Positions 6,522 to 64,000 of a DNA stretch of 64,000 bases are shown here, piece after piece (the first letter of the stretch is position 1; the number at the start of each line of letters is the position of its first letter). Source of the DNA: Peronospora farinosa (Eukaryota > Oomycota > Peronosporomycetes > Peronosporales > Peronosporaceae); assembly GCA_947646735.1 (NCBI GenBank), contig CANTFK010000909.1:1-64000 (forward strand), read 5' to 3'. Both the position numbers and the translations under genes were made by a program. The notes under the pieces were generated by a model, which was given only the letters and a program-made list of their open reading frames with translations, did not search any database and had not been told where the DNA came from.

Positions 6522-6529
6522 AACTAGGA

Positions 6530-7738: not shown

Positions 7739-7753
7739 AGACGATCACAATTT

Positions 7754-8842: not shown

Positions 8843-8859
8843 TCCGAGACCATCGGTGT

Positions 8860-9816: not shown

Positions 9817-9858
9817 ACATTAGAGATCCGTCGGAGTGAGAAAGGCGAAGACGAGATA

Positions 9859-12191: not shown

Positions 12192-12508
12192 GGACGATTG
12201 AATTGCTGGAGTGGTGAAGATATGTAAGAGGGTTACATATGTAGGTGGAAGGGATTATATGTGGAGTGAGTATAGTGGTCACGAAATCAAAGATGGAGAC
12301 AGGGGATCACTACGAAGAGAAAAAAGAAAGAAGAAGAGGAGGATTTTGAACGCGATCAACGGAACAAGGTGAAAACTATATGAAGATCGTGTTGATGTTA
12401 TGGATCGAAAAGGTTATTCGCGATTCACAAACTTGCCAACCGAGCAAAGGAATAGAATATGCACGGATACACCAGCACTGTATGCCGATTATCAGCGCAG
12501 GGGACGGC
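12192..12508 (+). other. A1 3' non-coding region and polypurine tract
   Basis: About 300 bp without an ORF follow the pol stop. Just before the 3' LTR lies a purine-rich stretch (12496-12508, GCAGGGGACGGC), the likely plus-strand primer. The same sequence, diverged, lies in relict A2 next to its 3' LTR (44932-45000, minus strand). Confidence 0.7.
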
Positions 12509-16416: not shown

Positions 16417-17010
16417 TGTAGACGGGCACTTCTACGAAGTTGCCTCGTACTACGAGCACACACCTTATGCACAAGCGAGGAAGCGGTTATACCGTCTTAC
16501 CTTCGCGTGCGAGGGTGGTTGGGAGGTTGGTCGACTGCTTAAGCAGTCGTACCACCAGTTGCCTCTCGCTTAAGCAAGAGTGCAATGAACTTCTAAGACA
16601 AGAAGGCACCGACGTCACGTAGAAGCTTTTCTGCTTCGGTGTTTAAGTAAATACAAGACTGAGCTATATTTAATGAATTATAACTAAATATATACTTAAC
16701 TACTGATTGGCATTAATATATATATATATAGATAGATCGGATACGCGACTCTTTAGAAGCGTATCCTGTCGCATGATCTTAAATCTAGATTTAAGTTTGC
16801 AACTGACGTCCTTCTGAGACGTCGTGATGCCTAGCTTCAACTAGCGTCATCCCTTCTTATGTGAATCCATCAATGGATATCACATTCACGAGGGTGGATC
16901 ACATTTGTGTATCGCACCCAAGTGACAGGTCAAAAGTAATCATGGATACTTTTAGACCAAACATTAAGTATATTACTTAATGTTTACGTGTAACTAGATA
17001 CCCTGTTACA
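16417..17010 (-). repeat. D1 3' LTR
   Basis: On the plus strand it starts TGTAGACGGGC and ends CCCTGTTACA. It is followed by CCATCCCCCG (17011-17020), the complement of a polypurine tract, which makes it the 3' LTR of a minus element. It is packed with inverted repeats, for example AAACATTAAGTA-TAT-complement at 16959-16985 and the palindromic CTTAAATCTAGATTTAAG near 16780. Confidence 0.9.
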
Positions 17011-21561: not shown

Positions 21562-21786
21562 GAGTTTCGAATTTGCCTCGTCGTGCACAAGTGTCAAACA
21601 CACTGCATAGGACCTTTTTCGCTGCTACCCTGCCCCCTCGACCCGCACCTCCAGCCGGTCGTCCCTCTCCCGCTTTTCCAGCCTCGCTTCTACGACATCT
21701 GTCGCGCTTCTCCAGTTTCGTCTTTACGTAACCTCGTCGCGCCTTTCCCCTGTCGTCCGCTCTTCGCTGTCCAAGCCTTTCACGCC

Positions 21787-23991: not shown

Positions 23992-24001
23992 TTCGCCGTG
24001 G

Positions 24002-27000
24002 ATGATCACAGGAGCGTCCGTTAACATTAACGGCCTCAACGCTCCGACTACCCATCTATTCAATCAGCTTTTTTCTTCATACGGCATGGTCGGGTTCCAA
24101 GAGACCAAGTTTAGCTCCTGGGACCACGTCAAACGTGCCAATTATTTTATCGCTTCTATCGACTCGAGGGCGGTCTATTTCTGGTCTCACGGGGCGGACT
24201 CCGACTACTCCGGGTCTCGTGGCCACGATGGCGTGGGTATCGTCTTCCGGGGCGATCACCCCTTCGACTCGCTGAAGGACGTCTCCAGCTCATTTGCCGA
24301 TGCAGCTGAGCTGTCGCATCGATACCTTGTCATTGAAGCTACTATTGGCGCGACGACCATTTTTTTTCACGTCATTTACGCTCCCGTGTCCGGCGATATG
24401 AGACGGACTTTTTTTGACATCCTGCCACACTCCTTCCCCGACGGGTGCCATCACTTGGCGCTCGGTGACTTCAACGTACCGATCGACCCATCACTTGACG
24501 AGCGGGTGGCCTCCCGTACATCACCTGGAGTTGCCGAGCTGCTCAATTGGCAATTGCGCCTGGGGGTCGTCGATGCGTGGCGTACCTTTCACCCTCTCCT
24601 TCGGGAATTCACCGGTCCCGGCCGGCGGAACCGTATCGACTATGGTTTCGCATCGTCGGAGCTTCTCGAGGATTACGTGGTTTGCTTCGATCATGTCAAG
24701 GACAAGATCTGGCACCACGCCGACCACCTACCACTGTCTTTTACGCTTCAATCTCCACTCTATCCTCAGCGGACGCAGCTGCCGTGGAAATGTCCATCGT
24801 GGTTGCTTAAACATTCCGCCGTCTCTGCTGTCTTAGGGCACTCCCTCGACGCCTTGCGGGCTCGCATCCGAACCGGTATCGCCGACAACCCGGGAGCATT
24901 GTATGACGAACACAAAAGGGCGGACGGAATTTACCTCCGCCAAATGTTTCACGTACTGAAGAATTCTGACGCCGTCGTGGAACGGTACCTCACGCAGGAC
25001 TTGCACGAGGCTACGTGTGCCCACGCCACCGAGAACTCGGAACCTTCAGCGACTAGTCTCCTCGCTGCGCGGGATGCGCTGGCGACGCACAAAGCCTTCA
25101 TCCAGTCTCGGTGCGAGGCTGCTAAATTCGACAAGGATGTCAGCACTGGCGAGTCCGGGTCCTCGTATTTCTTTCGTTCTCCGAGTTCGGTCAATCTTCG
25201 GGTCTCCATACCGAGCGCTACACGTCCGGACGGGTCTTCGACGACAGACCCTGACGAGATGGCTGAGGTTCACCGGAAATACTGGGGTTCTCTCTATCGC
25301 AGCCCCTCTCACGACTTCATCTCTTCGACATCCGTGTCGCCATTCCAACCTCTGGAGCTTCTACGCCTTCTCAGGCACACCACTTCATGCATCTCGTCTG
25401 CCGACCAAGTGCATCTCGATGCGCCTATGACGGCAAACGACTTTTATTGGGCCATCACGACTTCAGGACGCGGCAGGTCAAGTGGTTTGGATGGCTTGCC
25501 GATCGAGTATTTTCAGCTGTCGCCCCATAAGTGGGCCCAAGTTCTCGAAGGAGTGTATGCGAGCCAGCTCCGTCTTGGTCGTATGACCAAATTTCAGCGG
25601 CGCGCCTCCATCACACTTCTTCACAAATCCGGGGACCGCGGGGACCCGAGTAACTACCGCCCGATCACACTTCTAAACCATGACGCCAAGCTTGGGCCCA
25701 AGATTATGGCTCATCGACTTCGGAACGTCCTGCCCCACGTCCTCCACGGGGACCAATCCGGTTTTGTCTCCGGCCGTTCAATCCGACATTCGCTTGCTCG
25801 GTTTCAGGATCTTCAACAATTTTGTTCTTCGTCTGGTCGCACTCAGGCAGGCGCTGTCCTCCTGGACTTCGCCAAGGCGTTTGACAGCGTCCTCTGGCCG
25901 GCTTTGCGCCTCGTGCTTGAGCACATGGGGTTCGGCCCTCACTTTCTTCATTGCGTCAAGACGTTCTATACCGGCACACTTGTTGCTGTTCTGGTTAATG
26001 GACGAGCTAGTCGCTACTTTGAGCTCGGATGCGGGGTCCGTCAAGGTGACCCCCTCTCTCCTGCTCTTTTTGTTTTATTTCTGGAGCCCATGCTCAACTA
26101 TCTCCGGGTGACTACCGGTTCTCTCGGGATACGTGTGCCCACAGATGCAACTCGACACCACTTGCTCGCCTTCGCCGACGATTGCACAGGCTTCCTCGAC
26201 GACTTGGCAGAGACACCACTTTTCTTGCGGACCGTCCGTGGCTACGCTGACGCCGCCGGTCTTAAACTTAACGTTTCAAAAACGAAATTGCTCCCGTTCA
26301 CAGCTTGTGCTCCGGAGCTCCGAAGCTCACTCGTTGAGCTCGGCTTCACCGTCGTGGCAGACAATGCATCTACGAAGCTACTTGGGATTGACCAAAGCCC
26401 GTGTCTCCCGGTATGTCGACGCTATGACCGCATTCTGCCTCTCCTGGTTTCGAGGTGCCTTTTGTGGCGTTACCGCGCCCGAACACTACGTGGTCGTGCG
26501 GTTATCCTCCGGACTATAATACTCCCATTGCTTTGGTATACAGCGGCAGTCACTCCGATGCCACCCGCGGTAGCCGCACAAGTGACTCTACTCTGCAAAG
26601 CTTTCCTGTTCAAGCGCGTTATTGGATCTCCATCTTCGATCCGGGGGCCTCTGGCTGAGGAATGGCTGTATTGGCCGACCTCTCGAGGGGGTCTCGGCCT
26701 TCCCAACGTCGCTATTTTTGCTCAGACTCTTCTACTATGTTCTTTGCGGGATGCAGTTTCTTCGGCGGGTTCTCCTTGCATCATCTCGCGCTGGAGCTCT
26801 CCTGCAATAGCTCTGTTCTCTATGCCTCTCGGTCCGTCCGGCTCCGGTTTCGACATTCTCTACTGCGCTGTTCCGAAATCAGTCGCTCCAACGCCTCAGT
26901 GGGCTCTACTAGGGCGCTTCTGGTACGCTGCCTTACAGACATGGCAACGTCTTCGGGACTCGTCGCACCACACGTCGGCACTCTCCCAATTTTTGCTCGA

Positions 27001-27352
27001 CGCCCCACTTTGGAGGAATGTCTACTTCAAGGTCGGCACTCTCGGTCGCTTACTTGAAGACTCTTCTACCTTGGTTACCCATTTCAGGAATCTGGGCTAT
27101 GTGCGCCTACGTGATTTCCTCCTTCGTCATGGTCGGCTGCCTGACAAGGCACTTTGCCTCTCCATTTTGGCAGGGGTAGCCTTTGGAAGCCCCCCGACTG
27201 CGCTCGCTCGCTGTCTCGCAATTTCTTTCCAAATTATCACTCTGGTGCCTCGCCTCGGTTGCTGCTTCATATGGGCCGGCCCTCCCTGCCCACCTGTGCA
27301 GCGCGCGTCATGGCTGGTCCTTTCAAGGAGTCCTCTTTGGTCACCTCCCTAA
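24002..27352 (+). CDS. LINE ORF2: APE endonuclease and reverse transcriptase
   Basis: From ATG 24002, just after the ORF1 stop, 1116 residues are open. Residues 1-250 form an AP-type endonuclease: SVNINGLNA, GFQETKF, ALGDFNVPID, RNRIDYGFAS and HADHLPLSF carry the metal-binding and catalytic positions. RT spans about residues 500-790: NYRPITLLN, DQSGFVSGRSI, LLDFAKAFDSV, GVRQGDPLSPALFVL, and the catalytic LLAFADDCTGF. The endonuclease nicks target DNA and RT primes on the nick. The frame stops at 27350-27352 while the natural C-terminus continues in another frame (27183-27983), so a frameshift near 27200-27350 truncates ORF2. The open frame upstream to 23849 overlaps ORF1 and is probably not used. 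Confidence 0.85.
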   Translation: MITGASVNINGLNAPTTHLFNQLFSSYGMVGFQETKFSSWDHVKRANYFIASIDSRAVYFWSHGADSDYSGSRGHDGVGIVFRGDHPFDSLKDVSSSFADAAELSHRYLVIEATIGATTIFFHVIYAPVSGDMRRTFFDILPHSFPDGCHHLALGDFNVPIDPSLDERVASRTSPGVAELLNWQLRLGVVDAWRTFHPLLREFTGPGRRNRIDYGFASSELLEDYVVCFDHVKDKIWHHADHLPLSFTLQSPLYPQRTQLPWKCPSWLLKHSAVSAVLGHSLDALRARIRTGIADNPGALYDEHKRADGIYLRQMFHVLKNSDAVVERYLTQDLHEATCAHATENSEPSATSLLAARDALATHKAFIQSRCEAAKFDKDVSTGESGSSYFFRSPSSVNLRVSIPSATRPDGSSTTDPDEMAEVHRKYWGSLYRSPSHDFISSTSVSPFQPLELLRLLRHTTSCISSADQVHLDAPMTANDFYWAITTSGRGRSSGLDGLPIEYFQLSPHKWAQVLEGVYASQLRLGRMTKFQRRASITLLHKSGDRGDPSNYRPITLLNHDAKLGPKIMAHRLRNVLPHVLHGDQSGFVSGRSIRHSLARFQDLQQFCSSSGRTQAGAVLLDFAKAFDSVLWPALRLVLEHMGFGPHFLHCVKTFYTGTLVAVLVNGRASRYFELGCGVRQGDPLSPALFVLFLEPMLNYLRVTTGSLGIRVPTDATRHHLLAFADDCTGFLDDLAETPLFLRTVRGYADAAGLKLNVSKTKLLPFTACAPELRSSLVELGFTVVADNASTKLLGIDQSPCLPVCRRYDRILPLLVSRCLLWRYRARTLRGRAVILRTIILPLLWYTAAVTPMPPAVAAQVTLLCKAFLFKRVIGSPSSIRGPLAEEWLYWPTSRGGLGLPNVAIFAQTLLLCSLRDAVSSAGSPCIISRWSSPAIALFSMPLGPSGSGFDILYCAVPKSVAPTPQWALLGRFWYAALQTWQRLRDSSHHTSALSQFLLDAPLWRNVYFKVGTLGRLLEDSSTLVTHFRNLGYVRLRDFLLRHGRLPDKALCLSILAGVAFGSPPTALARCLAISFQIITLVPRLGCCFIWAGPPCPPVQRASWLVLSRSPLWSPP

Positions 27353-27983: not shown

Positions 27984-28080
27984 GGGATGCTCCAGGGTTT
28001 CAGTCGTTCTCTTTCGACTAGGCCTTTATCGCCGCCATTTTGGGCCTGGTATCGTTCCCTGAATTCCACTCCGGATTCCT

Positions 28081-28980
28081 TCTCTACCGCTTACAAAGCT
28101 CTGGACTATTTGACGTGCATACATGCTGTGTGGTACTAATCGCTTACTGGTTGACAGCCGGCTTTTGTTGGGCCATCGGTGTGTCGTCATATTTGGTCGG
28201 TCACACGTTGACATCATTTCTATACCTATTTCTACTATGGGTATTTCAGGTATGCTTCCTTCATTACGGTTTCCGACGTTTTGGACTATTTGACGTGCCC
28301 ACATCCTGTTTGGTACTGCATGCTGGCTGGTTGACAGCCGGCTTTTGCTGGACCTTTGGTGTGTCGTCATATTTGGTCGGGCACACGTTGCCATCATTTT
28401 TATACCTATTCCTACTATGGGTATTTCAGGTATGCTTCCTTCATTACGGTTTCCGACGTTTTGGACTATTTGACGTGCACACATGCTGTTTGGTACTGCA
28501 TGCTGGCTGGTTGACAGCCGGCTTTTGCTGGACCTTTGGTGTGTCGTCATATTTGGTCGGGCACACGTTGCCATCATTTTTATACCTATTCCTACTATGG
28601 GTATTTCAGGTATGCTTCCTTCTCTCCGATTTACGACGTTCTGGACCATTCGGCGTGCCCACATCCTGTTTGGTACTGCATGCTGGCTGGTTGACAGCCG
28701 GCTTTTGCTGGACCTTTGGTGTGTCGTCCTTTTTGGTCAGGCACACGTTGCCATCATTTTTGTACCTATTTCTACTATGGGTATCTCGGGCATGTCCCCT
28801 TCTCTCCGATTTCCGACGTCCTGGACCATTCGACATGCCCACATCCTGTTCGGTACTGCATGCTGGCTGGTTGACAGCCGGCTTTTACTGGACCTTCGGT
28901 GTGTCGTCCTTTTTGGTCGGGCACACGTTGCCATCATTTTTGTACCTATTCCTACTATTGGTTTCTCGGGGACTTCCTAC
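28081..28980 (+). repeat. Five 180-bp tandem repeats in the LINE 3' region
   Basis: Five copies of an exact 180-bp period; GGTTGACAGCCGGCTTTT recurs at about 28150, 28330, 28510, 28690 and 28870. Copies two and three are almost identical and copies one, four and five have diverged more. Because 180 is divisible by three, a frame on each strand stays open (28040-28990 plus; 28026-28664 minus). The plus frame encodes a 60-residue hydrophobic repeat (FGVSSYLVGHTLPSFLYLFL). I regard it as a 3' UTR minisatellite with unproven coding meaning. Confidence 0.9.
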
Positions 28981-32796: not shown

Positions 32797-34117
32797 ATGT
32801 CACCGAAACGTGGTAAGGCTGATGGGTCGCCTGCAAAGGCACCCATGCAGTCCAGCACTAAGCGCACGCGCCGCGATTTATCGCAACCGTCGCAAAGTGC
32901 TTCAGGCACTGAGGTATATCTTCCATCTCACTATAATGTGGATGAATATCCATCTCTAATTGTAGATTACAATGAGACTACGCCATTGCCATCACCCCAA
33001 AGTGGAGATGAGCAAAGCGCATTGATGGGACTATATGTCCCCATCATTTGAGGCACCCGTCCTTCAGGAAGCTTCCATGCTTCCTGACAGCGAGGGTCAT
33101 GCCTCGTTGTCTGCTCCAACGAGCGCAGCGACTACAACTGAGCGCGCTGCTTCAGACAAAACAGCCGCGGCTAAACAGTAGGTAGGAGATTCGAATTGTC
33201 CACTTCTGTTATCCCTACTTCTGACGCCTTGACAATCCATAATGGAGAGTCAGACTCAGGCGAGGGTGAGCTAAAAGCTTCTTCGACTTCACAGTCGGTT
33301 TAACTAGCACGCCGTCGCGAGGGCAGCTACATGAGTGGTGGCTTTCCACCAATGCCACCGCCATCCGAGTGGTCACACTCGAGTGGTAATAGTGCGACGC
33401 TTCTAAAGCGTGCCACTATTGACGCTGATAAACTCTTTAGCCTCTTTCCATCATAGGAACGGCAGAGCAAAGCACGTGGTCGTGCTTTCCTATCCCCGTC
33501 GTGTTGCGTTCGAACATAACAATCGTCAAATACGAGGCAGAGATTCTGCGCCTTGTTACATCGCATGTAGATGCAGTGACACAGCGGTAACAGCGAATTA
33601 GCTTCGCTATGACGCGTGCAAGGGAATATTGAGTGATAACATACCCCAACTCCTTCTCGCTACGCCGCCATTACTAGTCCATCTGGATCTAGCAGAGCGA
33701 ATGCAGCTGGTGCTTCTGCTCGTAAGCAGCCACCAGCCCAGGCACGTCGACGCGCAACGTGTCAACCGGCACCCAAGATTCGAAGCTCTTCGGGTATCCT
33801 TTTTACTGCACAAAGATCTAAAGCTTTTTCTTCGCATGGCGATGGGCCAACAAACTTCCAACAAGGAAGCGTGTTTTCCCACCCGCATCCACCAACACAG
33901 GTGGCGCCCGATAGGAGCGACGATTACGCCCAAATAATCGCTGCTGCCTATCCTGTAGACATTCAGTCGCAGGCGGAGATTGCTGCGCTGAAAAAGGAGA
34001 TAGCGAATCTTTCGATTAAAGCCTAGCGACAGACTTCAGATCTACGCGCTGTAAATTTGGGGGATCATTAGGGGTACGACCGCCTGAAGCTCCGTTTGGA
34101 CATTTTTGAGCGACTAC
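32797..34117 (+). pseudogene. D2 antisense ORF, degenerate
   Basis: The first 80 codons (MSPKRGKADGSPAKAPMQSS...) follow D1 closely, then a frameshift near 33030 and several stops break it. The later region still matches D1 (SGGFPPMPPPSEW, then the YEAE block, a Lys/Gln linker and the coiled-coil end near 33970-34110). Like D1 it has a stop (TAA near 33302) between the two halves, and the GTGAGC...CTAG boundaries of the proposed 42-nt intron are present. It shows that the antisense ORF is a stable part of family D. Confidence 0.7.
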
Positions 34118-40122: not shown

Positions 40123-41430
40123 ATGCCACCGAAACGTGATTAGGCTGATAAGTCGCCTGCAAAGGCGCCCATGCAGACCAAGACATATCGCACGCGCCGC
40201 GAAAACTTGCAGCCGTCGCTAAGTGCGTCTGTGAAAACACCGACATCTAATGTCAGGTTGTCAGAAGAACACACTACTATTGTGCGGACAAAGATCTGTC
40301 TCTTATTGCAAACTACATCAAGAACAAGCCACTGCCGTCACCCCAAAGTGGCGATGAGCAAAGTACATTGATGGGACATATGTCCATATCACTAGGAGCA
40401 CTCAACCTTCAGGAAGCTTCCATGCTTCCTGACAGCGAGGGTCATGCCTCGTCGTCTGCGACAACGAGCGCAGCGACCACAACTGAGCGCGCTGCTTCAG
40501 ACGAAACAGCCGCGACTCAACAGCAGGTCGGCGATTCGAAATCGTCCGCCTCTGTCAACATTACGTCTGCAGTCTTGACAATTCATAATGGAAAGTCAGA
40601 CTCAGATCAGGGTTTCTGCGACTTTGAAGCTGGACTCACTAGTTCACCGTCGCGAGGGCGGCTACGTGAGTGGTGGCTTTCCACCAATTCCACCCGAGTG
40701 CTTTTACTGCGACGCTCCTCGAAGCGTACCACTATTGACGCTAACAAACTTCTAACGTCTTTCCATCATGGACACGGCAGGGCAAAGCACGTGGTCGTGC
40801 TTTACTTATCCCCGTCGTGTTTCGTTCTAACATAACAACCATCAAATACGAGGTAGAGGTTCTGCGCCTTGTTACATCGCATGTAGATGCAGTGAAACAA
40901 CGGTCGCAGCGAATCAGCTTTGCTATGACGCGTGCGAGGGAATATTGGGCGGTAAAAAAAACCCTAGTCCTTCTCGTCACGCTGCCCCTGCAAGTACATC
41001 AGGATATAGAAAAAAGACGCCTGCTGGTGCTTCTGCTCGTGAGCAGCCACCAGCCCAGGCACTTCGACGCGCAACGCGTCAACCATCTCCCAAGAATCGA
41101 AGCTCTTCGGGTATCCTTTTTACTGCACAAAGATCTGAAGCTTTTTCTTCGCATGGCGATGGGCCAAAACCTTCCAACAAGAAAGCGTGTGTTCCCATTC
41201 TCATAGGTGCCACTCGATAGAAGCGGCGATTACGCCCAACTAATCGCGGCTGCCTATCCTGTAGTCGTTTAGTCGCAGGCGGAGATTGCTGAGCTGAACA
41301 AGGAGATAATAATCTCTCGAGTCAATCCTCTCGACTGACTTCAGATCTATGCGCTGTAAATTCGGGGGATCATTAGGGGCACGACTGCCTGAAGGTTCGT
41401 TTGGAAATGCATGAGCGACTGGAGATGAGA
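40123..41430 (+). pseudogene. D4 antisense ORF, degenerate
   Basis: It starts ATGCCACCGAAACGTGA, identical to D1 in the first codons, but codon 7 is a TAG. A long frame at 40368-40835 keeps the acidic middle (EASMLPDSEGHASSS, ILTIHNGKSDSD) and later frames keep the ISFAMTRAREYW block and the Lys/Gln linker. The position relative to the LTR (57 bp inside it) and the order of blocks match D1. The divergence is greater than between D1 and D5, so this copy shows which blocks are old. Confidence 0.65.
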
Positions 41431-41438
41431 GACCCGCG

Positions 41439-42735
41439 TCAAACGCGGACTACTCTTCGATCACCGAGTCCTCTCGTCTCCCTCGTATACAGGAAGTCTT
41501 TAGGCTTCCTCGTCGCCTGATCGGCCGCGACGCTCGACTCACAGTCGACGTCACCATCGGTCTCGTTAGACCGATGTGGATATGTGATCTCTTCTGGATC
41601 AACATACCGCTTCATACGATCCACGTAAAAACGGGGTGAGTCTTCATATACGGTGGGAGAGTGAGCCTATAATTTAGGTCTCCAACTTCTTCAACCCGCT
41701 GTAAATGGCCTAATGAATCGGGGCAATAGATTAGTAGTACCACCAGGTAGTACATGAGATTTCATGTTTAGGTAGGGTAGCAGTACTTAATAGAACTTTG
41801 TCCCCCACACTAAAGTGTTTATTGTTTTTGCGACCATGTTAGTCGCATATTGGTTTTAGCTTGTCCTGTGCGCTTGCCATCGCGTCACGGACTTTACGTG
41901 TGATGGCTAATCGCTCATCCACAAAGCGCTGAGATTCTCCCACGTTTCTAGCATCCAGATCGCCTATGACATCTTAAAAAGGTCGTTCATGGATCGACGC
42001 TGTTGATAACACTATAGTGTTACCGTCAAGAAGCACAGGCATTTCTTGTCGTATCTACTTATTGACTACTATAGGTAATGCGACCACCTATGAACTAGCT
42101 GTGTCACTAGGGCAACCTTGGCCCTTTTTGGCATTCGCACCGAGCGAGGTGAGGGGACCCCCCCCCCACTAAGACTCGGGCTGCGTACAAACGAGACTGG
42201 CGTTCGAGGATGACGCATTCCGTTAATGTAAAACGGTTTTTCACTATGGTGTGAACACTGTTATTAATAGCGAACTCCACGAATGGCAATTGCTTGCTTC
42301 ATTCTTTAGGAGTCGCTATTGTACGCAACACATCCGCCACGACTCAATTGGCCCGTTCTGTTTGGCCATCGGTCTGGGATGATCGGCTTCTGACATGTGG
42401 AGCGTGCTACCCAGCAGCTCGAACACATGTCGCCAAAAACCCGACGTAAAACGCGGATCCCGGTCCGATACTATGGACTCGGGCATCCCGTGTAGTCGAT
42501 ACACGTGATCCAGAAACAAGAGGGCAGCCTCTTTTCCGGATATCTTGGTGCTACATGGTGCCAAATGCACCTTCTTGCTCAGTCTGTCTACAAAGACGAC
42601 GAGCCCCGTCCTGCCTTTAGTCAGGCGGAAACATGAAGTCCAAACTGACCGACTTCCAACATTCAGTTGAAATCGGCAGTGGCTTCAGTGGCGTACTGCT
42701 AGAAGGTGCAGGCTTGATGCGCTGACACTCTTTTT
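41439..42735 (-). pseudogene. pol: D4 integrase and tail
   Basis: Minus frame 42316-42570 carries HLAPCSTKISGKEAALLFLDHVYRLHGMPESIVSDRDPRF (second core Asp) and then the same out-of-frame end as D1 and D5. The base missing at 42373-42379 and the TGA at 42299-42301 are both shared. The tail (41439-42289) is broken and carries the post-integrase region. The integrase N-terminal finger is lost at the truncation. Confidence 0.8.
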
Positions 42736-44931: not shown

Positions 44932-45966
44932 GCCGTCCCCTGCGCTGATAACCGGAATACAGTGCTGGTGTATCCGTGAATCTTGTGATCAATCTCCTAT
45001 TTCGATATCGGCATCCCAATTTGAAACTCAACACCATCAGAGTCATCCGATCGAACTGATAAAATTTACGATTAGTCATTGGCAGCAGTCGATCAACCTC
45101 CATCGGTGACCGCGTCCCCAGACTTGGTTGATACAGTATCTCGATGAACGGACAATGATTATTCCACTTTTGACGTCCCATCCCGCTTGGTTAATTGATA
45201 TGTGGATCGTAATTAATCGTTTAAATCATACCCATTGACGCGATCTTTTCCATATAATTTCCATATCTTTTCGTTGATCACGTCCATAATTTTTTTCTTT
45301 CTTCCTATTTTAAGTCGTGCTCACATTATTTCTTCGTCGATCTTTGATCTTCAGATCATATTCAATTAATATGTTGATCGTAATCAAATCTGTCGAACGT
45401 GATCAAATCTGTCGATCGTAATTCTTAGATCACTATACTCACTCCATATATACCCCATCCTACCGTCATGTGTAACACTCTTACACATATTCAACATCCT
45501 TAAATAGCCCACCGCCATTATTAACGACGTTCATTATCGTGTGACTGCATCACCTCAAAAAGATTCACACTCTCTCGATTGCGATCAAACATTTCCATTA
45601 AAGCACCAAAGATTTTATCGGCCTCATCTGCCCAAGACGGATTGTCATAACCTTTCCTGTGTACTTACAATTTACGGTACAATCGATTATAACGTGACTT
45701 AGGGCCCGATGGTACATCGACAATCTTTTCCTCTCGAATTCCCCCCCCTCTAAACCACCTTCCCAGCTATCTTCAAGCAATCATGCTTCATTGAAATCAG
45801 TTCGATCCCATTCATCTATATTCAGCAACTTGTAGGCCGTTACGAAAACACTTTGACCTGTTTTGACTTGGATACATGGACTTATGAAACAGCCTATACA
45901 GTTTACCCGTAATTTCCTATCGTACATCGTGATCACCACATTTACGGTCACAAGAAACAGTCCGTG
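44932..45966 (-). pseudogene. pol: A2 relict: chromodomain end and 3' non-coding region
   Basis: The reverse complement aligns with A1 11760-12508. Seen are the polypurine-tract area beside the LTR (44932-44945), the 3' non-coding region, and the pol end, including the complement of TTTTGAGGTGATGCA (about 45545-45560) and the chromodomain and integrase-tail coding near 45640-45930. Numerous indels and stops; no usable frame. It ends exactly at the C2 duplication CCGTG. Confidence 0.8.
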
Positions 45967-46183
45967 TGTAACGGGGTTACACGACGGTTGTAGCGTCTTT
46001 CCGAGAGTTTACGGTTAAACTCCCCTTTGTATTGCATATAATGCATTATTATACTTCTCTTTAGAGAGGTATTAAGTATGAGCGTTAAGATACGGTATTC
46101 GGTAATAGCGTATCTTATCGATTGAGAGTCGATAAATCACTAACGCTGTATTAAGTACATCATACACAGATGTTTAAATGATA
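45967..46183 (+). repeat. C2 5' LTR, first part
   Basis: It starts TGTAACGGGGTTACA, itself a hairpin, and runs to the solo-LTR insertion point GATA (46180-46183). The remainder of this LTR resumes at 48207. Confidence 0.9.
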
Positions 46184-46267
46184 TGTGGTAAAGTCGATTT
46201 GAGAATTTTGGCTAAGTCCATACAATAATTTTCTCGATAAATCCGGAGACGATTTATTGGGACTTTT

Positions 46268-46447
46268 CTCTCTAACGGTTATATCCCTTTCCCATAACGG
46301 CCGGATCCCTTTCTTATAACGGTTGGATCCCTTTCTCATAACGGCGATAGTCCTTTCCCATAACGGTCGGATTCCTTTCCCATAAAGGTCGGATCCCTTT
46401 CTCATAACGGCTGGATCCCTTTCTCATAACGGTTGGATCCCTTTTCC
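46268..46447. repeat. About 21-bp tandem repeats in the solo LTR
   Basis: Eight to nine imperfect units of the form GGATCCCTTTCTCATAACGGT. They lie in the 5' third of the solo LTR and are absent from the A1 LTRs, so different A-type LTRs carry different minisatellites. Confidence 0.85.
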
Positions 46448-47204
46448 CCATTAAGTCACTTACTAAAATGACTTATTGGGTGTGATGAAGTCGATCTCGA
46501 TTCATGGACGATCGAATGGAAAAGCACCGTTGATCCAAGATCGTTTATTTGTTTGTTCAATAAAACGAATGAAGAAGGGATCAATGGTATCGAAAACGAT
46601 GATGATATGGATTGAAACATACTTAAGGTGAAGATACATGGCATGGATCACATTTCCGAATAATTTTGAATGATCATGGAATAGGACACCGTTTGGATTA
46701 TACTTGATTCCAGTATCGGTTGATTAAATTAGATGGATTGATTTTAAAAGGATTATACGTGAATGTAGAATAGTGGAATTTCGCAAAGTGTGGATCGCGA
46801 CTGTGGAGAAGCGTGTGGCGAAGCGAAGGAGTAAATTTGGCAAAGTGTGATCGCGTATCTTCGGTTAAGTCCGAAATGTCCAATATTGATGAGTCGCGAT
46901 GTCGCAGAAAGGTTTCGAGATGACGTCAAATGGGATGGAAAACAGTGAATGGTGTAGTTTGCAGTTCTATGTGGGGTCAAATATGGCCTAGAAACTACGC
47001 TATTGCGATCTCCGGTATTTCTCGATGGCGATCCGCGTGAACGCGATCGCTAAGAAGGAGGATGGGTACATCCAAGTATGTGGAAGACGGTCTGGTGTGG
47101 ATCACGTCACTATGGAGGACTGGAATGGTGGGCATGACATGTCACATAGATGGACCATCTCACATGACCTGAGAAACGGTGAAGAGGACAAGTCGCGATC
47201 CGGC

Positions 47205-47510
47205 GGATCGCGATCCGATGCTAATTATTAGTATCGCGATCCGATATTAATTATTAGTACCGCGATCCGATACCAATTAGTTAGTACCGCGATCCGATAC
47301 TAATTATTAGTATGCGATCCGATACTAGTATTAGTACCGCGATCCGATACTAATTATTTAGTATCGCGATCCGATATTAATTATTAGTATCGCGATCCGA
47401 TACTAATTAATTATTAGTATCGCGATCCGATACTAATTATTAGAGATGATAAATTATAGTAGATCGATACAATTATTAGTACCGCGATCTGATACTAAAA
47501 TGGTATTAGA
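47205..47510. repeat. Palindromic minisatellite in the solo LTR (second copy)
   Basis: About eleven units with CGCGATCCGATACTAAT followed by ATTAGTATC or a variant, each forming a dyad. It is the reverse complement of the array at 4139-4335, with more units. Confidence 0.85.
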
Positions 47511-48206
47511 TCTGAGCACGGTAGCGATTCAGATCGTGGCGATATTGGAGTGGACCACATTACAAGATCTGATTTCTCCGAAAGAGCGATACGTGGCAAT
47601 AGATCCTGAGCTACAGATATGCAAGATCATAGGTTTTGGTATTTGATTGGTTAACATTAACAGAGTTCAATTTGCTTCTAAGTACACGTGTCGACTTCTC
47701 TTCCGGGCTGGATTCTTTGGCCTCCCGACGTCTCAAGGAAGTCTACATACTACGCAAGTCATATCCCTGGATTGTTTGACCAGGGATTGCAAGAATTCTC
47801 AACAAAACAACTCAAGCTGCGATTGGACGCAGAGGACTAAGAAGTCCAGATACAAGATCGCGAGACGGCTCAAGTGGTCAGAAGGCAAGCGGATCAAGTA
47901 TCTACATTTTTGGACAAGGCGATCTCAAGGGAGATCAGGGCGACTCAAATAGAGCACCCCAAGAACAACTGCGATCGTGTGAGGAATTCCACTCGATCGC
48001 CCCCCCCCCCACCTATCCCTAACACAATCAAGTTCAACATCGACTCAAGTCCACCGAGAAGAGAGCAACCCGCCCTACCGACGGGTACACAAGGTGAGGA
48101 AGGCTATACACACGGAACCGGGGTACCCCCTCCGTTATTCGGTCGTCCGGGCGCCAGTGGAGAGTTGGGATCGCATCAGCAATCTTGCGAATCCGACTCC
48201 ACCACA

Positions 48207-48639
48207 GATGCGTCGTTCAATAGCAAAGTCTGCATATAATAATTACTGTTATAGTAGTTAATCTAGTGTAGTGTACTTAGAGTAGGACTATTTATAAAAT
48301 CTTAAATCATAAATCAAAATCAGTTTCTCATTTTGAGTTTAAGATCACAAGTCGTTCTGACTTGTTCTCTTGTGCACTTCGTGCGTTGGTTCTCTGAACC
48401 TCTAAGCTTCTAGCTTGTTCTTGCACTCTTTGCGTTGGTTCTCTGAGCCTTAAGCTTATTGCTTGACTGACTAAAAGTCTTTTTCCTACTTCCATAGAAC
48501 AGGGTTACTTTTAAGGTCACTTAATTTATTCCTAAGAACTAAGTGGCTTTTAGCCGCAAAATTTATTTAGTTCTCTAGAACTAAGAGGCTTTCAGCCTAA
48601 AGTCTTCTTCTGGCTAAAGAGCTGTGTAGCTCCGCTACA
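48207..48639 (+). repeat. C2 5' LTR, second part
   Basis: It continues from the duplicated GATG to TGTAGCTCCGCTACA (48625-48639), the terminal hairpin and LTR end. It contains consecutive hairpins such as TTAGTTCT-CT-AGAACTAA and GGCTTTTAGCC. The primer-binding site follows: TGGTAGCACTCG from 48642, shared with family D. Confidence 0.9.
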
Positions 48640-48698
48640 CTTGGTAGCACTCGTAGTCAATCCTACACCTGAGTCTCTAAGGCTGACCCTCTGTGAGG

Positions 48699-52069: not shown

Positions 52070-52700
52070 CCAACCGTTTAGCGTCGTCTGTGACGCGTCG
52101 GATTTTGCCATTGGCAGGGCTCTGTTACAAAGAGATGATGAAGGCCGTGAGCGTGTAGTCGCTTACGAATCTCGCCAGCTGAAAGCTGCAGAGAAGAACT
52201 ATCCAGTTCATGACAAAGAGCTACTTGCGATGAAGTATGCCCTGTTCAAATTCAGAGTTCATCTGCTGGGCTCAAAGCCTTTTGTGATCTATACCGATCA
52301 TGCGTCGTTACGCACTGCGACTCAGTCGCCGCATCTCTCGCAGAGAATGGCCAGATGGCTGTCATTCTTTGCCGAATATAATTTCGAGGTGAAATATAAG
52401 CCGGGCAAGCAAAATGCTTTGGCTGATGCGTTGTCACGCAGACCTGACTATGAGCTTGCTCATGTGACGACGTTGTCGTCTTCTATCACCGATCTCATTC
52501 GTACGGCGTATGCTAAAGATGATCACTGTATAGCGTTGCTACATGCTCTTGGCAGTGATGCGTTTAAAGACTCGGACCTTAAATTGTCGGCACGATTACG
52601 TGCGAGCCTCCATCGATATTCTATCGATCAGGGGCTGTTATACTATCGTACAGATGTAGCGGATCCTCCGCGTATTGTGGTCCTCATGACGAGGACCTGA
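52050..52700 (+). CDS. pol: C2 RNase H
   Basis: This frame has all four Ty3/Gypsy RNase H motifs: VVCDASDFAIGRALL (Asp), NYPVHDKELLAMKYAL (Glu), YTDHASLRTATQS (Asp) and ALADALSRRPD (Asp). A helical connector leads to the integrase. RNase H removes the RNA strand during reverse transcription. The frame ends at 52700, where a small indel separates it from the integrase frame. Residues look catalytically complete. Confidence 0.85.
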   Translation: MAFPDPDQPFSVVCDASDFAIGRALLQRDDEGRERVVAYESRQLKAAEKNYPVHDKELLAMKYALFKFRVHLLGSKPFVIYTDHASLRTATQSPHLSQRMARWLSFFAEYNFEVKYKPGKQNALADALSRRPDYELAHVTTLSSSITDLIRTAYAKDDHCIALLHALGSDAFKDSDLKLSARLRASLHRYSIDQGLLYYRTDVADPPRIVVLMTRT

Positions 52701-53830
52701 AGTATCGAATCCTCTATGAGGTACATGACACCGCCATCGGGGGTCATTTGGACCGTGAAAAGACCTATGGGGCAGTATGGCAAAGCTACTGGTGGTCCAA
52801 ATTATATAAATGGGTGAGCACATATGTGCGTACGTGTGAAACGTGTCAACGGGTGAAACCCTCACCCCATTCGGCAGCACCGCTGGCTAGTTTGCCTATT
52901 CCCACTGGGTGCTGGGAGTCCATTAGTATGGACTTTGTATTTGCCCTACCGAACGATTCGCGTGGCAATACGGGTATTGTGGCCTTTGTTGACCGCTTAA
53001 GCAAGATGGCTCACTTAGCGGCTGTGCCAGATTCGATCGATGGTGTGGGTACAGCGGAGCTGTTTATCGATCGGGTGTTTCGCCAACATGGCTTGCCAGT
53101 GGCAATTGTTTCTGATCGTGATCCTCGTTTCACGAGTAAATTTTGGAAGTCCGTCTTCCAGGTGCTGGGCACCCGTTTGGACATGTCCACAGCGGATCAT
53201 CCGCAGACCGATGGTCATACCGAACGCGTAAATCGCGTTGTTGAAGATATCCTCCGCAGCGTTTGTGCTGAAACGCCTAAGCGATGGAGCGCTATGCTCC
53301 CTGTAGTCGAGTTTGCACTCAATAATTCCGTGCACGCCTCTACCGGCTACACTCCGTTCTATGTGAATGGTCTCACACACCCACGCGTTCCGTTAACGCT
53401 ACCACCGAGTGGTTCAGGGCTTGGTGGGGGAGAGGTTGTCGATCGGCTTGCTGATGTCAGCCCTAATACTGTTAAGAAACAGGTAAATGCGTTTCTCGCA
53501 ACGCGACTAAATGTCTTACGACATGTGCAAGATGCAATGGCTGATAGTCAAGATAAACAAAAGGAATATGCAGATGCGAAAGGCAGAGGTTGTATTAATG
53601 ATTATGAGGTCGGAGACCAAGTATTATTAAATGCTAAAAATCTACCTACCAATGTAGTATCCGCTGTATTTAAGACGAAGTTGCGCCCGCGCTTTATCGG
53701 ACCCTTTGAGGTCATTTCCAAGAAAGGCACAGCGTATACGCTTAATTTGCCGCGCAAATTGCGTACACATCCTGTGTTCTATGTTGGCATGCTCAAAACC
53801 GTATCGGGATCCGTCCCAAGTAAACGTTAA
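52700..53830 (+). CDS. pol: C2 integrase with intact DDE core
   Basis: The zinc-finger His pair (YEVHDTAIGGHLDREK, 52715-52765) leads into the 360-codon frame 52748-53830 with CETCQRVK. The catalytic triad is complete: SMDFVFALP (Asp), VSDRDPRFTSKFW (Asp) and ADHPQTDGHTERVNR (Glu). The C-terminal part (VGDQVLLNAKNLP, RPRFIGPFEVI, KLRTHPVFYVGML) is the usual integrase tail. A TAA at 53828-53830 ends the frame before the chromodomain. This is the only integrase core in the window that looks fully intact. Confidence 0.88.
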   Translation, partial: KYRILYEVHDTAIGGHLDREKTYGAVWQSYWWSKLYKWVSTYVRTCETCQRVKPSPHSAAPLASLPIPTGCWESISMDFVFALPNDSRGNTGIVAFVDRLSKMAHLAAVPDSIDGVGTAELFIDRVFRQHGLPVAIVSDRDPRFTSKFWKSVFQVLGTRLDMSTADHPQTDGHTERVNRVVEDILRSVCAETPKRWSAMLPVVEFALNNSVHASTGYTPFYVNGLTHPRVPLTLPPSGSGLGGGEVVDRLADVSPNTVKKQVNAFLATRLNVLRHVQDAMADSQDKQKEYADAKGRGCINDYEVGDQVLLNAKNLPTNVVSAVFKTKLRPRFIGPFEVISKKGTAYTLNLPRKLRTHPVFYVGMLKTVSGSVPSKR

Positions 53831-55115
53831 GGCGCTCGCGCCGAGCCCATTGGCATTGTCGCGGGACGAAGCATCTGCGCCAACAGGTCAAGCTGACCCT
53901 GCATTCGGGTCCGACTCTCTTCCAGGGACTCAAGCCGGGAGTTCATCGTCTGCCTATCCTCAATGAGGGACCGCTCCTCTTGAACAAGCTCGGCAAGAGC
54001 TTGTGCCGATACACCGGCCTCCTTCGGCTTTGCTCGATGCGCAGGGGAACCTACAGTTCCATGTGGAGCGTCTACTGCAGAAGCGTCGCCGCCATGGTCA
54101 AAACCAGTATCTGGTAAAGTGGCGGGGTTATCCCTAGTCGTGGAACTCATGGGAGCTCGAGGGTTCCCCTGCGGCAGGACTGCCCATACTCCGTGGACGT
54201 TTTTGAACGTCGTGCGCAGGTTCAGCCTGTTGGCGCTGACGCTTCTCACCAGTAATGGTGGGCGTGGGCGGGTTAGCGGCCTCAGCCTGTCGTGGACTCG
54301 CGGCTACAGGTGTAGCCGAAACATTGGGATGCTGGGTAGCAGACGCATAATGCGTTCGTTGGGATTTCAATTTTCCTGGGGCCTTCAATTTAGCGTAATC
54401 GTAACGCATGTTTCGCTCGAGTCGAACATCTGCCACATCGGCACTGCTGCCCGTAGGGCTCACATGCTGCCAAAACGTCGCGCATAATGCGCCCAGCGGC
54501 TAAAAGCCGTGTCTTCTTCGTCCTCGGCTTCCCCCGCGAACAGAAGAATGGGAACACCCTTTATGGGAGGAACTGGCGCACCGCGCACTTGCCTGTTGAG
54601 GTGTGCCAAGTTATTGGCTTTGTGTAGTGATGTGGGGTTCCAGATATCGTTGTCGAAGTGCCGCGCGCGTGGCAACATCCTCAGGTGAAATGGCCTCAGG
54701 CCCAATGGTCCAGCCAGAAAGGGAATGCCCAGATGCTTCATATAGGCGTTCTTCCACCGTAGGTGGCTTGAACCTGTACTGTCAGTGGTCCTGAAGCCTC
54801 GCCATATTCTTCGTCCGGCGCTTGGCGCCTTCCTCTTGGTCGATGGTCCGCTGTTGCTGCTCGTCGAGTGGGTTGGTAACTGTTACCGTTGATGATACGT
54901 CAGGCGGGTCACGTAACGCTGTTAGCGCATCTTCAGCACCACGTTCAGGGAACGGATTCGGTGAATGACTAGTGTCATCTTCACCCGTGATGGTGGCTAT
55001 AGGGGGCCCATCGGGTCCCACAAAGACGGTGTCACTTTCGTAATCAACCGCTTCGTCAAGTTTCGTCTTCAATGAGGTCCCGAAGAGTCTGTGACTCACT
55101 GCCAGGAGGCGTCAT
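53827..55115 (-). pseudogene. C2 antisense ORF: unknown protein with C-terminal coiled coil
   Basis: It is on the opposite strand to gag-pol. The ATG is at 55113-55115 (MTPPGSESQTLRDLIEDE), 111 bp inside the 3' LTR. It is read through four pieces in alternating frames: acidic N-terminus (54782-55099, KLDEAVDYESDTVFVGPDG), a folded-looking block (54460-54741, IKGVPILLFAGEAEDEED and FSRWAHYARRFGSM), a basic linker (54134-54463, LERNMRYDYAKLKAPGKLK, GEKRQRQQ), and a C-terminal coiled-coil end (53827-54249, LVQEERSLIEDRQTMNSRLESLEESR). Block order and location match the family-D antisense ORF, and similarity is visible in the middle block. Broken in this copy. Function unknown. Confidence 0.6.
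53965..54180 (+). pseudogene. pol: C2 chromodomain, downstream of the pol stop
   Basis: On the plus strand 53965-54180 reads QFHVERLLQKRRRHGQNQYLVKWRGYP, a TAG, then SWNSWELEGSPAAG: a chromodomain shadow with its characteristic VKWRGYP and SW motifs. It is separated from the integrase frame by the stop at 53828-53830 and carries its own TAG near 54135. Its coding strand lies opposite the C-terminal half of the antisense ORF, as in family D. Confidence 0.7.
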
Positions 55116-55213: not shown

Positions 55214-55226
55214 GCGTGGGGGAGGG
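55214..55226 (+). other. C2 polypurine tract
   Basis: GCGTGGGGGAGGG lies directly before the 3' LTR, the expected plus-strand primer position. Confidence 0.75.
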
Positions 55227-55870
55227 TGTAACGGAGTTACACGACGGTTGTAGCGTCTTTTCGAGAGTTTACGGTTAAACTCCCTTTTGTATTGCATATA
55301 ATGCATTATTATACTTCTCTTTAGAGAGGTATTAAGTATGAGCGTTAAAGATACGGTATTCGGTGATACCGTATCTTATCGATTGAGAGTCGATAAATCG
55401 ACTAACGCTGTATTAAGTACATCATACACAGATGTTTAGACGATACGTCGTCCAATAGCAAAGTCTGCATAAAATAATTACCATTATAGTACTTAATACT
55501 AGTGTAGTGTACTTAGAGTAGGACTATTCATAAAATCTTAAAGCATAAATAAAATCAGTTCTCCTTTTGAGTTTAAGATCGCAAGTCGTTCTGACTTGTT
55601 CTCTTGTGCACTTCGTGCGTTGGTTCTTTGAACCTTTAAGCTCCTAGCTTGTTCTTGCACTTGGTGCGTTGGTTCTCATGAACCTTAAGCTTATTGCTTG
55701 CTGACTAAAAGTCTCTCCTAATTCCTTAGAACAGGGTGACTTTAAGTCACTTAATTTAGTTTCTTTGAACTAAGTGGCTTTTAGCCGCAAAATTTATTTA
55801 GTTCTCTAGAACTAAGAGGCTTTCAGCCGAAAGTCTTCCTCTGGCTAAAGAGCTGTGCAGCTCCGCTACA
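55227..55870 (+). repeat. C2 3' LTR (644 bp), a chain of perfect hairpins
   Basis: It begins TGTAACGGAGTTACA and ends CTCCGCTACA, then the duplicated CCGTG. It is built almost end to end of short perfect inverted repeats. Stems and positions: GAGTTTA 55265-55282; AGATACGGTAT 55349-55376; TTATCGA 55376-55396; GACGA 55439-55452; CAAGTC 55582-55598; GTGACT 55736-55750; TTAGTT 55756-55773; TTAGTTCT 55798-55815. Many more have 4-5 bp stems. Confidence 0.92.
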
Positions 55871-56880
55871 CCGTGCCACATGTGGGCTAGTTTCCGAGCA
55901 TATCCATCCTTGGCTTGATCCAGATACAGCGATTCTTGCGATCCGCAACTTATCTATTATCGATCGTGATCTTTTATGGCGATCAGCTCAATCTTGAATC
56001 GCAGGTTTCAATCAATTATTCCCCACTGATCGTATTCTGTGATAATGATGTTGTATAATATATTAATGTCGTCGTGGATCTCAATCCCGTAATTTTGTGC
56101 TTTATAACGGCAGGATGGCCTCCAAAAATGATCGTAGGCTCCAACCGTGAATCAGATAGAACAGTCTGTCTTCACGGACACGATCTTGCGCGGTGTTAAT
56201 CGCAAAAGTCAATCGCTCTGCGTATTCGTCCCAATCCTTTTAATTCTCATCCGTCACATAAATCTTAATTGCTCTGGTCAGAATTTGAACCATTATCTCG
56301 CCTGTTCCATTTGCTTGCGGCCTGTATGCAATAGTGGGCCGCTGTTTCTGTACTGCGATCTTATTAAAAGCTCGGAAGAAATCAGACATAAATTCTGGCT
56401 CTCGCTCGTGGCGTATTGCCCCGCTTGCATCAAATCTCCGGAGTGCACCCTCTTCGTAATTCTCTGCGACGGTTTGTGCAGTTCTAGACGAACTTGCCTT
56501 CGTGATCACGAAACCAAAGATCAAATTTTTCCATAATAATAGTTCGGTGTTTACTTTGAATGATCGCGAATACGACGGGACATGATCCATATCCAAAATT
56601 TGAAAAGGATAGGTTGCCTGCAAATTTCCTAGTGATCCTCCGTGATTAAATGGTCTCACTTTGCCCGTTTCATATTTCACACATTCTCCTACATAGCGTT
56701 GCACACTCCATACAATCCACGCCAATGAAAATTCATTTTAATTCGTTGGTAAGTCCGACCGATTCCTTGATGACCATCCTCGAAACTCATACGATAATGA
56801 TGTATGAAATCTAGCTGCAATAATTCTGGTATTACCAAACGAGCTAGCTCTACACGACCTTCGGATCTCGCAGCCTATCC
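55871..56880 (-). pseudogene. pol: A2 relict: integrase region
   Basis: The reverse complement aligns with A1 about 10680-11745. Minus frame 56240-56725 is still open over 161 codons and holds the integrase zinc-finger end (VGECVKYETGK, with one Cys changed to Tyr), core motifs LDMDHVPSYS, REPEFMSDFFRAFN and YRPQANGTGEIMV. It is continuous with 44932-45966 once C2 is removed. At 56880 it is interrupted by the D5 LTR. Confidence 0.8.
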
Positions 56881-62372: not shown

Positions 62373-63437
62373 GAGGCACGGCAAGAAATGCCAGTGCTCC
62401 TTGACGATGACACCATATTGTTATCAACAGCGTCGACCCATGAACGACCTCTTGGAGGCGTCATCGGCGAGCTGGATTCTAAAAGCGTGAGCGAAGCTCA
62501 GCGCTTTGTGGATGAGCGATTAGCCATCCCACGTAAGTACGTGACGCGATTGCAAGCGCACAGGACAAGCAAAAACAATATACAGTCCAGCATGGTCGCA
62601 AAAACAATGAGCACTTTAGTGTGGGGGACAAAGTGCTATTAAGTACTGCTACCCAACCTAAAAATGCGATCTCGGTACTACCTGGCGGTACTACTAAGCT
62701 ATTGCCCTGATTCGTTGGGCCATTTGCGGTGGTCGAGGAGGTTGGAGACCTAAATTATAGGCTCACTCTCCCACCGTATATGAAGACGCACCCCGTATTT
62801 TACGTGGGTCGTCTGAAACGGTATATTGCTCCACAAGAGATCACATATCCACATCGGTCTAACGAGACCGATGGTGACGTCGACTGTGAGTCGAGCGTCG
62901 CGGCCGATCAGGCGACGAGGAAGCCGAGAGGCTTCCCGTATACGAACGAGGCGATAGAGGACTCGGCGATCGAGGAAGACTCCGCGCTTGACGCGGGTCT
63001 CTCATCACCAGTCGCTCTAAGATGTCCAAACGGGCCTTCAGGCGGTCATACCCCTGACGGTCCCTCGCCCTCACATCACGCAGATCCGAGATCAGGTCGC
63101 GAGACTTGACTCTCGAGATCTGTCACATGCCTCTTCAGCGCAGCAGACTCAGCCTGCGACTGAACAGCAGCAGGGTAGGCAGCCGCGAGTAGGTGGGCGT
63201 AATCGCCACTCCTATCGGGCAACACCTGTGTTGGTGGACACGGAAGGGAATACGCGCTTCCTTGTTGGAAGGCTGTTGGCCCACCGATTTGTGAAGCGAA
63301 CGCTCCAAATCCTTGTCCAGTGGAAGGGTTACCCAACGAGCTTTGACTCATGGGAGCCTGTGGACGCTTTGCGCGTTGACGTGCCTGGGCTGGTGGCTGC
63401 TTATGTGAAGCAGCACCAGCTGTCTTCTTTCTGCTAG
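62373..63437 (+). pseudogene. pol: D5 integrase tail and chromodomain
   Basis: Frames 62388-62642 and 62729-63109 carry the post-integrase region (YRLTLPPYMKTHPVFYVGRLKRYI). Frame 63228-63437 carries the chromodomain (FVKRTLQILVQWKGYPTSFDSWEPVD) ending VKQHQLSSFC. Frameshifts separate them. The chromodomain motifs are intact and lie opposite the antisense ORF. Confidence 0.75.
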
Positions 63438-64000
63438 GTCCGGAAGGACTAGCAGAAGAAGCGTGGCGAGAATTAATTGGGGGACGCTTACCGCCCATAA
63501 TTTCATGCGCACGCTTCATGGCGAAGCTGATTCGCTGCGACCGTTGTTTCGTTGCACCTACATGCAAGGTAACACGGCGCCGAAGTTCATCTTCATAGTC
63601 GTCGGCTGTTTCGTTAGAACGCAGCACGACTGAAATTGGGAAAGCACGACCAAGTGCTTTGCCCTGTTTTTTCCACAAAGGAATGACGCTATAGAATCTA
63701 TGAGCGTCTTTAGTGGCACGCTGCAAAAGCGCTGCGCTAGACCCATCCGAGTTCATCCACTCAGATGGAGGTGGCATTGGTGGCAAGCCACCACTCACGT
63801 AGGCGCCCTCGCGACGGCGGGCTAGTGAGGCCTAAGGTGTACTTGGTGGAGCTTTAAGCTCACACTCAGCTGAGTCTGACTCGCCATTATGGATTGTCAA
63901 GACATCAGCTTGAGAAGTTACATCTGACTGAGTCGCGACTACTCCTTTCGAAGTAGCGCGCTCAATCTTAGTCGCTGCGGTCGTAAGCGCAGACGACGGG
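62859..64000 (-). CDS. D5 antisense ORF, C-terminal two thirds (start beyond window)
   Basis: Minus strand, almost identical to D1: the SGGLPPMPPPSEWMN block (from 63798), YEDELRRRVTLHVGATKQ, ISFAMKRAHEIMGGKR, a Lys/Gln linker and the coiled-coil start (ALKRHVTDLESQVS). An extra base near 63095 shifts the last part into frame 62859-63074 (RQGYDRLKARLDILERLVM). The TAG between the halves (about 63833) and the flanking GTGAGC and CTAG are conserved. The N-terminal part continues past 64000. Confidence 0.65.

Follow-up and report, generated by a model that had tools for sequence, protein, structure and literature searches.

A candidate antisense accessory gene facing the chromodomain of pol in two Gypsy families of Peronospora farinosa

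Antisense additional open reading frames (ORFs) located between pol and the 3′ LTR are a recognized class in plant LTR elements, as the sequence-only reading of the DNA analyzed here had stated (PMC7264820, PMC11963269). Plant representatives of this class, aORF-3R, include gene23 of maize Grande, RIRE2, PvRetro13 and ORF4 of Silene Retand; the class has also been reported for Boty of Botrytis, and both the plant and the Botrytis proteins are described there as having no known function (PMC7264820). Grande gene23 is reported to be nuclear and to be transcribed from a promoter upstream of gene23 (PMC7264820). Retand is described as a non-chromovirus lineage and has a region of 2.9 to 6.6 kb between pol and the 3′ LTR (PMC11963269). 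Among retroviruses, the HBZ protein is located in the nucleus, and the 3′ LTR of HTLV contains an antisense promoter (PMC11963269, PMC7264820). For oomycetes, the Chronos group has been described, Gypsy elements that have a chromodomain and whose pol contains a second RNase H of archaeal type; the word "antisense" is absent from the main text of that paper (PMC5348765).

We analyzed a 64,000-nucleotide stretch of the Peronospora farinosa genome (contig CANTFK010000909.1; referred to here as the window) and searched the genome assembly, which comprises 46.85 Mb in 274 contigs. Two Gypsy families in the window, C and D, had been proposed to carry an ORF on the strand opposite gag-pol. Such an ORF indeed recurs intact elsewhere in the genome, but the family C copy of the window, C2, is not open, and the D1 copy of family D has an in-frame stop. 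In C2 the ORF (53827–55115, minus strand) is a relic disrupted by frameshifts and by a stop codon, with intact relatives of 427 codons. Its ATG is at 55115, and its coding pieces, all on the minus strand, are spread over several frames (54785–55111, 54614–54781, 54463–54882, 54137–54499 and 53830–54303). Taken alone, C2 would fail as an ORF, and the finding therefore rests on its relatives. On the plus strand of C2, pol encodes the integrase and an SH3-like domain (52583–53830) and then the chromodomain (54039–54252), which lies opposite the linker of the antisense protein and whose tblastn match switches frame near 54161. The 3′ LTR (55226–55871, plus strand) was delimited by self-comparison with 45966–46183 and 48207–48640. 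These two segments are the 5′ LTR of C2, split by about 2 kb (46184–48206) with short repeats inside at 47207–47498.

In D1 the ORF lies on the plus strand, as an N-terminal part up to the in-frame stop (17118–17591) and a remainder in the same frame (17625–18512). Opposite it is the chromodomain of pol (17989–18177, minus strand), and a part of the 3′ LTR (16417–16719, minus strand, that of gag-pol) was located by a blastn match to the LTR of another family D copy, L049 (89% identity over 320 columns). The D2 ORF (62886–63996, minus strand; opposite chromodomain 63246–63434) is cut by the window edge and contains one frame change. D4 (32797–34116, plus strand; protein match 54% identical) and D5 (40123–41542, plus strand; pieces 35–56% identical) are relics, with opposite chromodomains at 33692–33880 and 41012–41173, respectively.

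The window also contains other repeats. Positions 414–13941 hold a different Gypsy element, with plus-strand ORFs at 5293–12096, an RVT_3-type second RNase H and near-identical blocks at 414–2773 and 12501–13941; it perhaps belongs to the Chronos or Archon groups, and the antisense-ORF profile had no match in it. Two long overlapping plus-strand ORFs at 21583–27352 (802 and 1167 amino acids, the second with a reverse transcriptase domain) are possibly a non-LTR element beside or within the D1 element. A direct repeat with a 180-nt period occupies 28076–28915, where four overlapping 300-nt copies are 83–90% identical to the first.

Searching the genome with a D1 piece (17625–18509) yielded at least 133 scored places (from 953 candidates) at 78–100% identity, and two C2 pieces yielded at least 150 scored places each (from 437 and 549 candidates). 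For family D we took 40 of the 133 places, and for family C 20 places, in both cases mostly ones listed as open; three divergent C copies were added later. The intact D ORF comprises 481 codons. The usual ATG together with exactly this length was found in 9 of the 40 D copies, and, judged from ORF lengths, the 481-codon frame is contained in a longer frame in 7 more. Of the 20 C copies, 17 have the whole 427-codon frame. Together with D1 and C2, these copies gave alignments of 41 rows for D (40 genome copies and D1) and 24 rows for C (20 plus three copies and C2), and over the reference columns 30 of the 41 D rows and 21 of the 24 C rows had no in-frame stop. In five 9-kb D stretches, four LTR pairs were 98.8–99.7% identical and one partial pair 91.5%; given the high identities, family D has probably moved recently. 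In eight D copies (L015, L017, L022, L025, L037, L043, L044 and L046) the open frame continues upstream, past the usual ATG and in the direction of the 3′ LTR, making a longer N-terminus possible there. Protein P0011 also has an N-terminal extension.

The layout of the ORF relative to the LTR and pol is the same in both families. The antisense start had been placed about 110 bp inside the 3′ LTR; the distance holds, but the ATG is internal to the LTR edge rather than within the LTR. It lies 106 to 110 bases from that edge in D and C, on the strand opposite to gag-pol, as in L049 (LTR 698–1300, ATG at 1407) and in C2 (110 bases). The first approximately 289 codons in D and 285 in C are free of pol, in agreement with the expectation that the N-terminal half would be clear of it. 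The second part overlaps pol by about 140 to 190 codons, covering the chromodomain and the linker between integrase and chromodomain, and the stop falls just short of the SH3-like domain both in D and in the intact C copy L060. The proposed convergence with a chromodomain was borne out, since Pfam Chromo was detected in pol of D (E 3.3e-08) and of C (E 2.6e-12, in L060) and a chromodomain is opposite the antisense ORF in all five window copies (D1, D2, D4, D5 and C2). As computed from coordinates and the Pfam match, it faces antisense residues 299–348 in D and 300–352 in C, and the codon phase between antisense and pol frames is identical in the two families.

In the non-overlapping half, stops in the ORF frame, a number lowered by the choice of open copies, averaged 0.24 per copy in D (41 rows) and 0.04 in C (23 rows), compared with 6.8 to 29.8 in the other five frames, so that the open frame is not due to chance. 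In the non-overlapping half of family D, changes common to at least 4 of the 41 rows comprised 26 synonymous, 26 missense and 0 stop changes (omega about 0.36); the same class in pol-only sequence gave 25, 7 and 0 (omega 0.10). Singleton changes in D, whose missense counts may be lowered by the choice of copies, were near neutral (0.78; pol-only, 0.97), as expected of dead copies. For the shared classes, the wrong plus-strand frames of D gave 1.4–1.8, and the minus-strand frames gave 1.2 and 0.5 (frame 0), 1.8 and 2.3 (frame 1) and 0.50–0.54 (mirror frame). Minus frame 0 fell to 0.49 in the commonest class, and the low values of this frame and of the mirror frame count against the claim of selection in D. 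Comparison of D with the relics D4 and D5 gave 0.50 (other frames, 0.64–1.00) and 0.67 (0.70–0.87), values only slightly below those of the other frames.

In family C, changes common to at least 2 of the 24 rows comprised 42 synonymous, 20 missense and 1 stop (omega about 0.18), and outside the piece whose match list had guided the choice of copies the counts were 26, 12 and 1. Pairwise dN/dS was calculated against L060 for eight of the 23 available rows. Six of these gave 0.10–0.27 at a dS of 0.11–0.22, with 1.2–3.9 in the wrong plus-strand frames; the two weak pairs, L074 (0.61; other frames, 0.41–1.00) and L073 (0.82), each had a dS under 0.05. Low values (0.21–0.39) also came from the mirror frame in the six informative pairs; this frame has its third positions in common with the ORF frame, yet it carries 6.8 stops per copy. 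Of seven rows compared over pol alone, six gave 0.12–0.31 and L073 gave 0.94. For shared changes and divergent pairs, dN/dS in the non-overlapping half was thus below 1, and the value near 1 that would have spoken against the earlier interpretation did not appear. We regard purifying selection on this half as well supported by the sequence comparisons for both C and D.

These data bear directly on the view that the ORF is a mere by-product, a shadow cast by the codon usage of pol on the opposite strand. We give this view almost no credence, because 285 to 290 codons lie outside pol and are constrained, which contradicts it for the non-overlapping half. Within the overlap it fits one stretch. 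Counting changes common to two or more copies, the pol frame is constrained in the chromodomain stretch (D, 12 synonymous, 8 missense and 2 stop; C, 14, 6 and 0) while the antisense frame is free to vary (D, 2, 21 and 0; C, 2, 17 and 0). The earlier suspicion that C-terminal similarity between the antisense proteins might be forced by the chromodomain is therefore partly right. The by-product view fails again in D over the linker, since constraint there acts on the antisense frame (32, 27 and 1) rather than on pol (11, 45 and 2). In the C linker, neither frame is clearly ahead (antisense, 10, 13 and 0; pol, 9, 16 and 0).

For sites silent in one frame only, the chromodomain and linker stretches of D differed (3:13 versus 33:13, Fisher p 0.00032; p 0.0046 and 0.015 at stricter counts), as did, weakly, those of C (3:14 versus 11:9, p 0.04; stricter counts, 0.21 and 0.63), all of these p values being optimistic because related copies are not independent. 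The ranking of the D copies had used protein similarity across a stretch containing the chromodomain part; since the antisense frame is still free in that part, this ranking alone does not explain the low linker value. Constraint in the overlap thus appears to be divided, with the chromodomain held on the pol strand and the linker on the antisense strand, a pattern that is clear in D and weak in C.

Aligned as full profiles, the C and D antisense proteins matched with 96.6% probability and an E of 5e-10 for that single comparison. The non-overlapping halves alone scored 45.8 (E 8.6e-6), against 21.6 for the best of 40 column shuffles, and the middle block alone scored 42.9 against 21.5 when shuffled. 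The similarity of the middle blocks suggested from sequence thus stands out above shuffled controls, and in the matched core that block is succeeded by a basic helix. BLASTP with single sequences did not detect this likeness. Between C and D, pol is 58–67% identical in reverse transcriptase, RNase H and most integrase comparisons and 43–50% identical in the C-terminal part of integrase and the chromodomain; the antisense protein is only about 20% identical in its matched part and hence changes faster. A shared origin of the C and D antisense proteins is well supported by the profile comparisons.

Relatives were collected in three protein searches, each scoring at most about 8000 candidates. 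Among the matches listed were 91 distinct proteins, none of which has a functional name. They include proteins of Peronospora (P. effusa, P. farinosa, P. matthiolae and P. destructor), Hyaloperonospora (H. arabidopsidis and H. brassicae) and Phytophthora (Phytophthora sojae, P0086, and Phytophthora rubi, P0087), the Phytophthora members being known here from proteins alone, and residues are conserved between species. The orientation opposite to gag-pol might suggest that a host gene or another mobile element was captured recently by one family. We consider a recent capture very improbable, since the same protein, position, phase and overlap are found in C and D despite the divergence of their pol sequences, and since the 91 listed proteins lack a functional name and the named organisms are all Peronospora, Hyaloperonospora or Phytophthora. 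An old capture, preceding the split of C and D, may have occurred.

The block order of the protein had been described as identical in C and D, with an acidic or Ser-rich N-terminus, a middle block, a basic linker and a C-terminal coiled coil. This order is right, but an overall basic linker is confined to D (9 K/R and 1 D/E); in C the linker is mixed (12 K/R and 14 D/E) with basic clusters. The N-terminal region is acidic in both, with 18 D/E and 4 K/R in C residues 1–75 and 11 D/E and 1 K/R in D residues 41–110, the latter preceded by a first stretch of 40 residues that is basic overall. The D tail is Ser/Arg-rich. In the predicted C structure, whose mean pLDDT is 58.5, residues 131–250 form a small, confident domain (76–90) and residues 369–414 a coiled coil (63–77), with low confidence in the N-terminal part and the linker. 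The D prediction is poor overall (mean 47.8) and has the same order of parts, with core helices of low confidence at 193–269 (43–74 by block), a low-confidence region and a coiled coil at 366–435 (55–93). Residues opposite the chromodomain are below 45 in both models. A fold search with the predicted structures returned no significant match.

In 15 of the 91 proteins scanned for motifs, the best heptad window was 60–90% hydrophobic at positions a/d in all 15, a figure obtained without a control, and the motif K[KR]x[KR] was present in 11 and absent in 4. By hydropathy alone, the top 19-residue Kyte-Doolittle mean was 0.47–1.34 in 14 of these members and 1.61 in one; a transmembrane segment was not apparent, and an Env-like protein was rejected on this ground.

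The same architecture might instead belong to an antisense-encoded protein with a role in structure or assembly; it could, for instance, bind RNA as a partner of Gag or assist integration together with the chromodomain. The basic linker and Ser/Arg-rich tail of D, the predicted coiled coil and the chromodomain opposite the ORF in all five window copies would suit such a protein. Against it, none of the 24 members scanned (7 plus 17) matched a Pfam family at an E of 0.001 or below, and antisense transcription would presumably uncouple its synthesis from that of Gag-Pol. We regard a structural role as unlikely, albeit the most credible of the alternatives considered.

Taken together, the results support the overall interpretation first drawn from the sequence. 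We moderately favor the view that the antisense ORF is a genuine accessory gene of chromodomain Gypsy elements of the Peronosporaceae, encoding a coiled-coil protein that is probably a nuclear oligomeric regulator, and that both the ORF and its overlap with pol were inherited from the common ancestor of families C and D. The transcript would begin in or beside the 3′ LTR, in antisense orientation. Its translation would yield an acidic, disordered N-terminal region, a small and mostly helical core, a disordered linker (basic in D, in C bearing clusters of basic residues) and a coiled coil likely to mediate oligomerization. The protein would most likely work in the nucleus on the nucleic acid or chromatin of the element itself, in transcription or integration, much as has been proposed for gene23 of maize Grande or for antisense proteins of retroviruses. 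The 3′ LTR origin of the transcript, the nuclear location and the regulatory role are suggested by position, composition and the plant and retroviral cases. On the opposite strand, the pol chromodomain faces an antisense stretch that is predicted to be disordered and is unconstrained, and in D the predicted antisense coiled coil faces the poorly constrained linker between integrase and chromodomain.

The antisense RNA rather than the protein might be what matters, if convergent transcription gave rise to double-stranded RNA restraining the element, with the ORF being incidental. Antisense regulatory transcripts without coding capacity are described for some elements (PMC7264820), and small RNAs of both senses are reported to map to Gypsy elements of Phytophthora infestans (PMC3522703). 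An incidental ORF would not be expected to have low omega, 427 to 481 open codons and residues conserved across species, and we consider this explanation improbable. Antisense RNA could nevertheless act in addition to the accessory protein that we favor.

A broader reading, which we advance only tentatively, is that an antisense regulatory gene older than the split between Phytophthora and downy mildews supplies these elements with a controller of their own that acts in the nucleus, for example on silencing or integration, and that an HBZ-like solution was reached independently outside retroviruses. Ordered and disordered parts would then alternate between the strands, the chromodomain being set against a disordered antisense linker and the antisense coiled coil against a disordered pol linker. 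Because the two families have at least 133 and at least 150 scored places in a single genome, include intact copies, have relatives in three genera and show selection that can be measured, they offer a comparative system for asking what antisense accessory proteins do and why they remain antisense. The chromodomain overlap with its divided constraint likewise provides a testable case of two proteins encoded in one stretch of DNA in a eukaryotic mobile element. In downy mildew genomes these ORFs are deposited as unnamed or uncharacterized proteins, and they should be annotated as element genes.

Among known systems, the plant aORF-3R genes are alike in being antisense, located between pol and the 3′ LTR and conserved through the family (PMC7264820). 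The oomycete ORF shares this position and conservation among copies; its second part overlaps pol. It differs from the plant genes in its oomycete host, the chromodomain element, the pol overlap of about 140 to 190 codons and the lack of a Pfam match, a distinction drawn without direct sequence comparison. The Retand antisense proteins carry Transposase_28 (PF04195), a domain without a match at E up to 1 in the 24 oomycete members (7 plus 17), and identity with them was rejected on this basis; a PF04195 search of the genome itself also found none, but its control gave no match either. The brtn gene of Botrytis Boty, compared by description only, likewise lies antisense in a Gypsy element as an additional gene, and its host, too, is a filamentous plant pathogen (PMC8365987, PMC7264820). 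As in Chronos, C and D are oomycete Gypsy elements with a chromodomain (PMC5348765). No second RNase H was found in the scanned pieces of C2, D1 and D2, these copies being in pieces.

Antisense coding is also shared with HTLV-1 HBZ and HIV-1 ASP. HBZ has an acidic N-terminus and a C-terminal coiled coil, a likeness of plan only. At E up to 1, the 24 members gave no match to a bZIP family, and an HBZ-type bZIP protein was accordingly rejected. Our literature search did not meet this protein family, oomycete hosts of such ORFs or an overlap with a chromodomain. Additional ORFs placed antisense between pol and the 3′ LTR are thus a known class, within which the present case is set apart as a new form by its protein family, its oomycete host and its overlap with the chromodomain.
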